This document shows, one piece after another, positions 2,153 through 5,031 of a stretch of DNA of 9,228 nucleotides. Below the pieces are notes generated by a model. It made no database searches. It saw nothing but the letters and a program-made list of their open reading frames with translations, and was not told the origin of the DNA. Both the position numbers and the translations under genes were made by a program. Numbering within the stretch: the stretch's first letter is position 1; the number at the start of each line of letters is the position of its first letter. This DNA is from Burkholderia sp. Its GTDB lineage: Bacteria > Pseudomonadota > Gammaproteobacteria > Burkholderiales > Burkholderiaceae. The stretch covers positions 1 to 9,228 of the forward strand of contig JAQGMD010000115.1 of NCBI GenBank assembly GCA_028292565.1, written 5' to 3'.

Positions 2153-2812
2153 TTACTTCAAACCTGCGATGTAGTCGGCGACGGCCTGGATTTCATCATC
2201 GGCCATGCGCTTTGCAATCGTGGTCATCTGGGGGCTGTTCTTGCGAGCACCTGAGCGGAATGCAACCAACTGTGCCGCAGTGTAATCCTGATGCTGACCG
2301 CCAAGGCGAGCAAACTGGGCGGGAATCCCAGCACCGTTCGCTGCATGGCAAGCTGCGCAGGCAGGCACATTTTTTTCTGCGATACCACCGCGGAAGATCT
2401 TCTTGCCAAGTTCAACCGTGTCCTTGTTCTTCGCTGCGCCCGGCTTGATTGCCTGCTTATCGAGATAGGCGGAGATATTTTTCATATCTTCATCGGTCAT
2501 TGCCTTGGCGATCGGGCTCATCACCGGATTATTACGCTGCGGGGTCTTGAAATCCAGGAGCTGCTTGTAAATATAAGCTTCATGCTGGGCGGCCAATTTC
2601 GGATTTTGCACGATAGAAGAATTGCCGGCCGCGCCATGGCACGATACGCACGCAATGATATTGCGGGAGGCGTCGCCATTCGTATAAAGCGTTTCTCCTT
2701 TGGCCAGATCCGCCTTCGGCGCTTTTTTCTCTTCTGCGGCATATGCGATGGAAGAAACAGCCAGCATCGCAACAAACACGGACTTCACAAACGGTAAAAA
2801 CGCACGATTCAT
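2153..2812 (-). CDS. cc4: Dihaem cytochrome c4, periplasmic
   Basis: Cytochromes c4 are periplasmic two-domain electron carriers that feed terminal oxidases. The 219-residue protein starts with a Sec signal peptide (hydrophobic stretch about residues 8-24, likely cut after AYA, residue 25). Two class I cytochrome domains follow, each with one CXXCH haem site: CVSCH at 55-59 and CAACH at 152-156. Likely axial methionines are Met98 (NPVM) and Met196 (NSPQM). The repeated pattern CxxCH, (K/R)L..QH, Y...QL..F, M..IA..M, DDE(I/M)...Y(I/L) shows the internal duplication typical of c4. Length is usual for the family. AGGGTG ends 5 nt before the ATG and supports the start. The gene diverges from engB and is followed by a strong terminator. 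As a c-type cytochrome it depends on the ResB system encoded just downstream. I see nothing aberrant in it. Confidence 0.95.
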
Positions 2813-2966: not shown

Positions 2967-3674
2967 ATGTCCCTACTTTGGCAGGCCCGTTTTTTTACTA
3001 CGGTAAACCATCTCCGTGACTTGCCAAAAACGCAAGTCCCCGAAATCGCTTTTGCCGGGCGCTCGAACGCCGGCAAATCGACGGCAATCAACATCCTCTG
3101 TAACCAGAAAAAACTGGCGTTCGCTTCCAAGACGCCCGGGCGCACCCAGCACATCAATTATTTTTCGATCGGCGGAGCGCACGTCGGGCAGCACAGGAAA
3201 GACGAAACACGGGTCGATGAAATTCGCGCCCTGCTGGTCGATCTTCCCGGCTATGGTTACGCTGAAGTGCCCGGCGCTGCGAAATTGTATTGGAACGAAC
3301 TGCTGGGCAGTTATATTCAAACCCGCGAGCAGTTAGCCGCACTGATCCTGATCATGGATTCGCGCCGTCCTTTTACTGAACTCGATACGCAGATGCTGGA
3401 GTGGTTTGCACCGACCGGAAAACCGATTCATTGCCTGCTCACCAAAGCCGACAAACTCAACCGGAACGACTCCACTAACGCGCTGCGCCTTGCGCGGTCC
3501 GTGCTCAGCAGCTATGTTGATGAACAAGGCCAGCCGCTGCCATTCACAGTCCAACTCTTTTCAGCATTGAAACGCACGGGACTCGAAGAGGCGGATGACC
3601 GCATTCTGAACTTGCTGGGACTGGATGAGAATCCCGACGTCGCCGACGAGCATGCGGACGACAGCCGCGAATAA
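2967..3674 (+). CDS. engB: Ribosome-biogenesis GTPase EngB (YsxC/YihA)
   Basis: EngB is a TrmE-Era-EngA-YihA family GTPase needed for late 50S subunit assembly. All G motifs are visible in the 235-residue product: G1 GRSNAGKS (31-38), G2 region TPGRT (56-60), G3 DLPG (92-95), G4 TKAD (159-162) and G5 SALKR (199-203). The frame is open upstream to an ATG at 2700, but I chose 2967 because the family begins [17 protein letters not shown] and the upstream stretch overlaps the cytochrome c4 gene antisense. No clear Shine-Dalgarno sequence precedes this start (the leader is C- and T-rich). Compared with the roughly 210-residue E. coli protein it has an insert between G2 and G3 (about 70-90) and an acidic tail (about 220-235), both of which I recall from betaproteobacterial homologues. 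No plus-strand T-run follows the gene. Confidence 0.96.
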
Positions 3675-3712
3675 CCGTGCGACCTACACTGCGACGGACG
3701 CATCGAAAGGAC

Positions 3713-3748
3713 AAAAAAAACCCTGGAGAAAGGGGAGGATCTCCAGGG
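3713..3748 (-). terminator. Intrinsic terminator on minus strand, orphan with respect to coding genes
   Basis: The 9-bp stem CCCTGGAGA/TCTCCAGGG (3721-3729 with 3740-3748) has a 10-nt loop and is followed on the minus strand by TTTTTTTT (3720-3713). Both flanking genes, engB and hemB, are on the plus strand, so this strong minus-strand terminator serves no protein gene. On the plus strand no T-run follows the stem, so it is a poor engB terminator. It is the main evidence for a minus-strand RNA gene here. Confidence 0.85.
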
Positions 3749-3820
3749 CAGTAACGCCTTATCGCTAATGCCACGATACGGCCCCGCTCAGGGAGGAGAA
3801 GCGGGAGGTGAGTGATCACC
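3713..3820 (-). ncRNA. Candidate trans-acting small RNA converging on engB (unnamed)
   Basis: No protein-coding gene fits the 228-bp engB-hemB gap, yet its minus strand reads as a compact chain of four stem-loops ending in a terminator. SL1 is AGGTGA/TCACCT (3821-3806). SL2 is CCCGCT/AGCGGG (3805-3783) with loop TCTCCTCCCTG. SL3 is TATCG/CGATA flanked by GCC/GGC (3782-3756). The last is CCCTGGAGA/TCTCCAGGG (3748-3721) with loop TCCTCCCCTT, followed by eight T (3720-3713). The two C-rich loops (CUCCUCCC, CCUCCCC) are of the anti-Shine-Dalgarno type known in several Hfq-linked sRNA families, and the U8 tail suits Hfq binding. Length would be about 108 nt. The 5' end is inferred from structure and a weak promoter. 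From memory, Spot 42 (spf) in E. coli and ErsA in Pseudomonas also neighbour engB. Homology to either is not claimed; expression is unproven. Confidence 0.6.
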
Positions 3821-3826
3821 TATTGC

Positions 3827-3854
3827 TGAGATAGAGGTGCACCTCAAAAGTTTC
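3827..3854 (-). promoter_or_regulatory. Possible sigma-E-type promoter for the candidate sRNA
   Basis: On the minus strand GAAACTT (3854-3848), 6 of 7 to the RpoE -35 consensus GGAACTT, is followed after 16 nt by TCTCA (3831-3827), a loose match to ECF -10 boxes such as TCTGA. Initiation would fall near 3820, just before SL1 of the candidate sRNA. A weak sigma-70 alternative is CTGAAA-N17-TATCTC in the same stretch. This is pattern matching only. Confidence 0.25.
3834..3845. repeat. Perfect palindrome GAGGTGCACCTC upstream of hemB
   Basis: GAGGTGCACCTC is a 12-bp perfect palindrome 58 bp upstream of the hemB start. It sits inside the spacer of the proposed minus-strand sRNA promoter, so it could be an operator for that transcript or for hemB. 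No regulator is recognised from the motif. Confidence 0.35.
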
Positions 3855-3859
3855 AGGTT

Positions 3860-4922
<1,063 letters not shown>

Positions 4923-4990: not shown

Positions 4991-5031
4991 TTTCCCATTG
5001 TTTCCGCTACCATGGCGGAAACAATGGGAAA
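4991..5031. repeat. Perfect 17-bp inverted repeat at the 5' end of the corA-type gene
   Basis: TTTCCCATTGTTTCCGC (4991-5007) and its exact reverse complement (5015-5031) flank a 7-nt loop, TACCATG. The loop contains an in-frame ATG (5012) of the downstream gene. No T-run follows on either strand, so it is not a standard terminator. A competing 9-bp pairing also exists: TTCCGCCAT (4978-4986) with ATGGCGGAA (5012-5020). The structure ends 13 nt before the start codon I favour (5045), so it would sit in the 5' leader and could gate translation. Confidence 0.85.

Follow-up and report, generated by a model that had tools for sequence, protein, structure and literature searches.

A small RNA of the anti-hemB type convergent with engB is probably one branch of a wider engB-linked family

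An intrinsic terminator on the minus strand between two plus-strand genes, engB and hemB, raises the question of which transcript it ends and what that transcript might do. It lies in a stretch of 9,228 nucleotides from Burkholderia sp., the whole of which was analysed and is called the window here. The initial annotation proposed an unannotated small RNA (sRNA) that represses mRNAs through C-rich loops and that might be an analogue of Spot 42 and ErsA by position without being homologous. The answer that we consider probable is that the RNA is anti-hemB, the betaproteobacterial branch of an old envelope-stress (RpoE) sRNA family located 3' of engB, and that it represses via its C-rich loops.

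The flanking genes were confirmed with curated cut-offs, both on the plus strand as had been claimed (Table 1), and the RNA is indeed convergent with engB: 38 nt separate the engB stop from the terminator end. On the 3' side of engB, hemB here replaces polA, a position that Spot 42 holds and that ErsA holds in the polA-engB interval (PMC8575079, in the text available), so that both positional parallels drawn at the outset are supported. Further along the window, an inverted repeat with perfect 17-bp arms and a loop of 7 bases (4991-5031) spans the 5' end of a corA-like ORF; since its ATG at 5012 falls inside the repeat, a later start is likelier.

Table 1. Coordinates of the RNA, its parts, its predicted promoter and the neighbouring genes
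Feature	Position	Strand	Basis and remarks
cytochrome c gene (c4-like in the naming of the initial annotation)	2153..2812	-	PF00034 over cut-off; far side of engB
engB (yihA/ysxC)	2967..3674	+	TIGR03598 YihA/YsxC, 200.5 bits against a cut-off of 124.45; convergent with the RNA
anti-hemB-type small RNA	3713..3820	-	about 108 nt; RF02837 score, fold z -5.72, R2 match at 3713-3827
intrinsic terminator	3713..3748	-	9-bp stem-loop 3721-3748, then U8 3713-3720
second C-rich loop UCCUCCCCUU	3730-3739	-	inside terminator hairpin
hairpin 2 (middle)	3756..3782	-	fold; loop not C-rich in the window
hairpin 1	3783..3805	-	C-rich loop UCUCCUCCCUG at 3789-3799, conserved; fold and alignments A1 and A3
5' hairpin (P0)	3806..3821	-	predicted fold
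-10 element TCTCA, same predicted promoter	3827..3831	-	predicted start about 3820
-35 element GAAACTT, sigma-E-type promoter (predicted)	3848..3854	-	GAAACTT-N16-TCTCA, one mismatch in 9 scored positions
hemB	3903..4922	+	NF006762 porphobilinogen synthase, 516.7 bits against a cut-off of 297; PF00490; divergent from the RNA

Four hairpins make up the predicted fold of minus-strand 3713-3820: a 5' hairpin is followed by the C-rich one, the middle one and the terminator. The fold and coordinates bear out the 9-bp stem with its U8 tract and the two C-rich loops described in the initial annotation. The minimum free energy of -47.0 kcal/mol compares with a mean of -29.9 (sd 3.0) for dinucleotide shuffles, none of which reaches it in 200 attempts (z -5.72). 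The 5' hairpin should be read with some reserve: of 82 family members, 75 form a stem of at least 4 pairs in the 5' segment, as do 61% of resampled segments. A simple promoter and terminator scan of 3300-4300 returned neither a sigma-70-type promoter nor a terminator, the latter because the scanner's rule allows loops of 3-8 whereas the loop in the window is 10 long. Searching plasmids with the window gave no match.

When the window was scanned against 4227 Rfam families at E 5, the top match was RF02837, "anti-hemB", with 57.1 bits against a gathering threshold of 49.5 (E 1.6e-11, covering model positions 1-81 of 81). Within 3713-3820 the sole other match at that E-value was ar14, at 26.1 bits against a gathering threshold of 58.8; Spot 42 (RF00021, threshold 80 bits), ErsA (RF01719, threshold 50 bits) and sX13 (RF02232, threshold 50 bits) gave none. 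By score, then, the RNA is anti-hemB. The Rfam search that the initial annotation had called for thus overturns its description as unannotated, and together with the fold it upholds the gene itself: we have little doubt that 3713-3820 on the minus strand is an sRNA gene. Taken alone this would be an ordinary result, a known family in one more genus. What is known of the family fits the annotation's proposal of Hfq association. Anti-hemB of Burkholderia cenocepacia is ncS04, reported to be 105 nt long, with a 3' end mapped by RACE and Hfq binding, and with no significant change in expression in the conditions of Table 2 of that source (PMC5688073, as far as its available text goes); the length implied by the predicted start near 3820 agrees with the published one. 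Anti-hemB also appears among the predicted RNAs of B. pseudomallei in the accessible part of PMC3521395.

How widely is this RNA shared, and by which neighbourhoods? We built two covariance models, R1 from betaproteobacterial sequences and R2 from 24 engB-linked loci without any betaproteobacterial sequence. Applied to a MAFFT alignment (A1: the window plus 38 of the 53 loci with a loop-1 core and U-tract described below), RNAalifold recovered hairpin 1 only, because gaps had shifted the other stems out of register; the structures for R1 and R2 were therefore set by hand. The 24 loci of the R2 training alignment (A2) were chosen from 32 for a promoter-like box with at most two mismatches and a C-rich stretch. 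Note that a search with RF02837 itself at E 10 over five genomes matched 13 of 14 control genomes, so weak RF02837 matches were ignored.

Among betaproteobacteria we sampled 80 hemB loci from named records, which with the window make 81 sources. A loop-1 core and a U-tract occur in the right order in 53 of the 80, and R2 matches 55 of the 80 plus the window (56/81 sources), with one further match at E 0.24. The window itself is found by R2 at 52.8 bits (E 1.7e-11). Across the 39 sequences of A1 there are 21 invariant columns, eight of which form the loop-1 run TCCTCCCT. The terminator loop is less constant: UCCUCCCCUU is mostly an insertion relative to the RF02837 consensus, and a C-rich terminator loop is seen in the window, in L001-L003 and in L054, L060, L070 and L077 (Sideroxydans, a Nitrosomonadales bin and two other bins), and is missing from the Burkholderia, Cupriavidus and Comamonadaceae rows of A1.

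Where engB was found near a betaproteobacterial match (29 of 56), the RNA is convergent with it in every case; the remaining 27 come largely from Comamonadaceae and unclassified bins and show no engB match in the DNA examined, a stretch that is short in some cases. A family member in a Hydrogenophaga bin (L034:1447-1562) lies about 1.5 kb from hemB, with engB not found in the DNA examined. Eleven loci with engB beside hemB give no R2 match (Rugamonas, Janthinobacterium, three Polynucleobacter, Achromobacter, Advenella and four others). The engB match ends at most 133 nt from the hemB match in 10 of them, so that the interval itself has shrunk. Rugamonas and Janthinobacterium are two of the five loci most similar to the window, and both are without the RNA between engB and hemB.

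In the class as a whole, 124 of 143 genomes have an engB match; 70 engB loci were sampled, and 69 retained after removal of the betaproteobacterial G001. R1 gives 45 matches of at least 15 bits in these 69 loci; of these, 39 matches at 37 loci converge with engB from its 3' side within 700 nt (best E 1.9e-12), and at L098 a match is arranged alike, with the scripted engB end falling beyond the RNA. L115, L129 and L159 each have a member that follows engB in the same orientation, which suggests local inversions. R3, run over the 54 loci without an R1 or R2 match at the expected place, adds three matches at E 0.1, namely the same-strand L159 and L129 and a match at L111 (E 0.031).

With strict filters, a genome-wide R2 search of 274 class genomes matched 164 and left 110 without a match; setting aside the 24 training genomes, all of them positive, 140 of 250 remain. 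The matches listed come from 131 genomes, 65 of which have a place for engB: in 51 of these the RNA is convergent and less than 1 kb from engB, while in the other 14 it lies on another contig (8), close by in the same orientation as engB (3) or far away (3). Without training genomes the convergent arrangement within 1 kb holds for 28 of 42 among the matches listed, and the synteny with engB thus stays strong. At L166 (G176 contig 33) four listed matches follow one another in the interval from engB to polA, with five in the genome, and at G017 contig 22:263766-263876 R2 finds a second strong match outside the sX13 locus, a possible paralogue.

These loci bear directly on the function that the name anti-hemB hints at, cis-antisense regulation of hemB. 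Proximity speaks for it, 55 of the 56 betaproteobacterial matches being divergent from hemB and less than 900 nt away; moreover, according to a review, hemB was a predicted target of the Hfq-purified Bc7 (PMC6321483, in the part available), which may be this RNA. However, the RNA begins some 80 nt ahead of the hemB start and is transcribed the opposite way, and hemB is present in none of the 69 engB loci in the DNA examined around each, yet at least 37 of them carry the RNA. In the DNA examined around the 38 positive engB loci the neighbours are instead polA (25) and a relative of the cytochrome c of the window (20; by tblastn such a relative is near engB in 33 of all 69), with hemB at 0. We rejected antisense to hemB as a conserved role since the RNA is kept at engB loci that have no hemB in the DNA examined, and regard hemB regulation in cis as very unlikely to be what the RNA does.

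A further feature shared by many of these loci is a promoter box, which, like the distribution across the class, goes beyond the initial annotation. We scored GAACTT-N15..17-TCnnA, which we take to be the sigma-E-type consensus, over 95 nt around the model start, with expectations from first-order resampling. This consensus is anchored by the published sigma22-dependence of ErsA (PMC5819304, PMC6321483, in the text available of each), whose locus L162 carries GAACTT-N17-TCATA. Because the A2 loci had been picked for a box, promoter counts were taken from matches found by R1 and from matches outside A2. The R1-found set comprises 42 of the 45 matches of at least 15 bits, the second L126 match, L129 and the opposite-strand L099 having been dropped. 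An exact box precedes 15 of the 42 against 0.06 expected, and a box with at most one mismatch 30 of the 42 against 0.95 expected; the spacer is 16 in 28 of these 30, nearly all at one distance from the start. Among 24 further matches outside R2 training, drawn from 16 loci plus L162, L164, L165 and L166, 18 have a box with at most one mismatch, nine of them exact, and that of ErsA is exact with a spacer of 17. The tandem copies at L166 have a box upstream of four, three with at most one mismatch and one with two.

The betaproteobacterial matches have a box with at most one mismatch in 26 of 56 cases against 1.4 expected and an exact one in 0 of 56, a count that shared ancestry makes non-independent. 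These boxes belong to the window, L001-L003, a group of the GGAACTA-N16-TCTGA type, and Paraburkholderia and Pandoraea (GAAACTT-N16/17-TCATA). The box is missing from both sX13 loci, Burkholderia L011 and L016, most Comamonadaceae loci and several clades. RpoE passes its cut-off in all three near genomes, and two of the three rpoE genes are preceded, some 75 nt before the matched start, by a one-mismatch box; the third is without. The predicted promoter of the RNA is likely to be under sigma-E control in this Burkholderia sp. Within its spacer, 3834-3845 is a 12-bp palindrome, GAGGTGCACCTC, absent in L001-L003, which might be an operator or might be chance.

Could the element be a mere terminator or structured spacer beside engB, with no function in trans? 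Its terminator does face engB, but the promoter-like box, the four hairpins and the conserved loops on covarying stems are difficult to account for in this way, and transcription and Hfq binding have been reported for relatives (PMC5688073, in the text available); we give this explanation hardly any credence. Covariation was assessed on alignment A3, which holds 82 matches from 76 sources: the window, 20 of the 55 betaproteobacterial loci with a match, 35 engB loci, L162, L164, L165, L166 and 16 of 30 loci from the R2 search. Omitted were seven engB loci with R1 matches (L107, L125, L126, L129, L141, L142 and L159) and, from the R2 search, L186 and 13 loci that duplicate engB loci of the sample. 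Every one of the 22 pairs varies on both sides in some part of the alignment. Pairing is seen in 85.4% of cells, compared with 67.4% after shuffling and at most 55.6% after sliding, and the covariation score, 0.479, exceeds both the 0.182 of shuffled and the 0.147 maximum of slid alignments; since A3 had been fitted to the structure, these values are overstated. CCCC, CUCCC or CCUCC occurs in loop 1 of 76, loop 2 of 58 and loop 3 of 57 of the 82 matches. Stems vary and loops keep their composition, as pairing between loops and targets would predict.

Does the family also take in RNAs that have been described under other names? The Rfam ErsA family passes its cut-off in one of the 274 genomes and sX13 in two, and none of these genomes went into R2. 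R2 nonetheless finds true ErsA at 40.4 bits (E 2.4e-7), its sole match at E <= 0.01 in that genome, and the true sX13 members at 47.6 and 44.0 bits (E 2.4e-9 and 2.9e-8), the best matches of both genomes. For ErsA, the idea of an analogue without homology is thereby contradicted, since a model made from other engB loci recovers it. Scanning 33 R1-positive engB loci against all of Rfam places anti-hemB on the element in 31 of the 33 at E 0.5, and sX13, Pseudomon-1/ErsA, ar14, ar7 and CcsR1 in fewer; two of the matches on the element reach gathering, both of them anti-hemB.

The same comparisons address the possibility that anti-hemB is confined to betaproteobacteria and unrelated to the other engB-linked RNAs, its likeness to them being a matter of convergent C-rich loops. 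Such loops do occur away from engB: R2 matches 15 of 15 loci of ar14, weakly (best per locus 16.3-32.5 bits), and engB and polA are in none of these 15 in the DNA examined. Since C-rich loops are found in families such as ar14 at other places in genomes, likeness of loops alone may be convergent; nor does any Rfam clan join these families, the clan column reading '-' for all that match the element. On the other hand, convergence would have to reproduce a common position and orientation, the promoter box, the order of hairpins and the stem sequence around loop 1, as well as reciprocal E-values down to 1e-11 and 1e-12. We consider separate origins unlikely and think it very likely that the RNA of the window belongs to a wider engB-linked family; the best reading is that ErsA, sX13 and anti-hemB are one family that Rfam keeps as unlinked families.

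The likely mode of action of the RNA is as follows. Envelope stress would free the extracytoplasmic sigma factor RpoE, which would transcribe the sRNA from the GAAACTT-N16-TCTCA promoter towards engB; the sRNA, probably with Hfq, would expose the loops UCUCCUCCCUG and UCCUCCCCUU, and these would base-pair with Shine-Dalgarno regions rich in purines, so that a set of mRNAs would go untranslated. The complementarity of the loops to Shine-Dalgarno sequences, noted at the outset, is supported: for illustration, with two typed strings, loop 1 of the window pairs at -10.8 kcal/mol with a generic Shine-Dalgarno string and at -23.5 with a longer purine-rich one, and loop 3 at -8.7 and -14.0. An anti-Shine-Dalgarno mechanism is plausible and translational repression in this Burkholderia sp. 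likely. For relatives, others have reported transcription and Hfq binding (ncS04), sigma22 control and repression at ribosome sites (ErsA) and loop-dependent repression (sX13); for the organism of the window, RpoE control, use of Hfq and the targets are inferred.

As for history, we lean with some confidence towards a single sigma-E-transcribed sRNA gene that the common ancestor of gamma- and betaproteobacteria carried between polA and engB, with up to three C-rich anti-Shine-Dalgarno loops, from which anti-hemB, ErsA and sX13 would have descended; some lineages would later have replaced sigma-E control, loops would have disappeared one at a time, and the gene would sometimes have undergone tandem duplication (G176, L166). 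MicA and RybB are enterobacterial, and the proposed ancestral sRNA would be their counterpart, induced by stress and acting to silence translation. sRNAs of Burkholderia, Pseudomonas and Xanthomonas that have been studied apart would then appear as one family by place, loop chemistry and, in most of the branches seen, promoter type. If this is true, findings on ErsA and sX13 become transferable to many unstudied genomes, which gain a candidate envelope-stress sRNA, and Rfam gains a clan to curate; the question of how Spot 42 arose in the same place is opened as well. That polA loci outside Xanthomonas's own group hold sRNAs with C-rich motifs had been pointed out in the sX13 paper (PMC3771888, in its available text), and in the open-access literature, seen in part, this is the one paper found to join polA-locus RNAs of different groups. 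The same search (subscription papers lay outside it) found no paper with both ErsA and sX13.

The known systems resemble the RNA of the window to different degrees. Spot 42 shares the place and converges with yihA/engB, but in E. coli neither a CUCC/CCCC loop nor, even with two mismatches allowed, a box of the sigma-E type was seen; it scores 13.3 bits with R1, 13.2 with R2 (terminator only) and 17.5 with R3, and no member was found among the 274 sampled genomes. The alphaproteobacterial ar14 (NfeR1) has three hairpins with CCUCCUCCC anti-Shine-Dalgarno motifs (PMC10746234), and its model (RF02344) stays far under gathering on the window. Next to the 5' end of polA lies ar7, matched weakly by R2 in 3 of 9 cases and by R3 in 9 of 9 (10.6-22.7 bits). 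sX13, downstream of polA, has C-rich loops in all three hairpins, against two of three in the window, and represses in a loop-dependent manner; unlike the window, both of its loci are without a sigma-E-type box, and it is published as Hfq-independent (PMC3771888, in the text available). With anti-hemB/ncS04 the window shares the place beside hemB, the hairpin-1 sequence and the terminator, at about 108 nt against a published 105 nt (PMC5688073, in the available text), and differs in having a C-rich terminator loop, which the Rfam consensus and the Burkholderia rows do not have, and a sigma-E-type box, where Burkholderia L011 and L016 instead have a TATGAT hexamer with a poor -35. ErsA (Pseudomon-1) has been termed a functional orthologue of Spot 42 (PMC8395346, in the accessible portion). 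It differs from the window in that L162 is without the hairpin-1 C-rich loop, and resembles it in its engB-side place and its three stem-loops, the box being exact in L162 and one mismatch away in the window; its published sigma22 control and repression at ribosome sites with Hfq would have their counterpart in the RNA described here.
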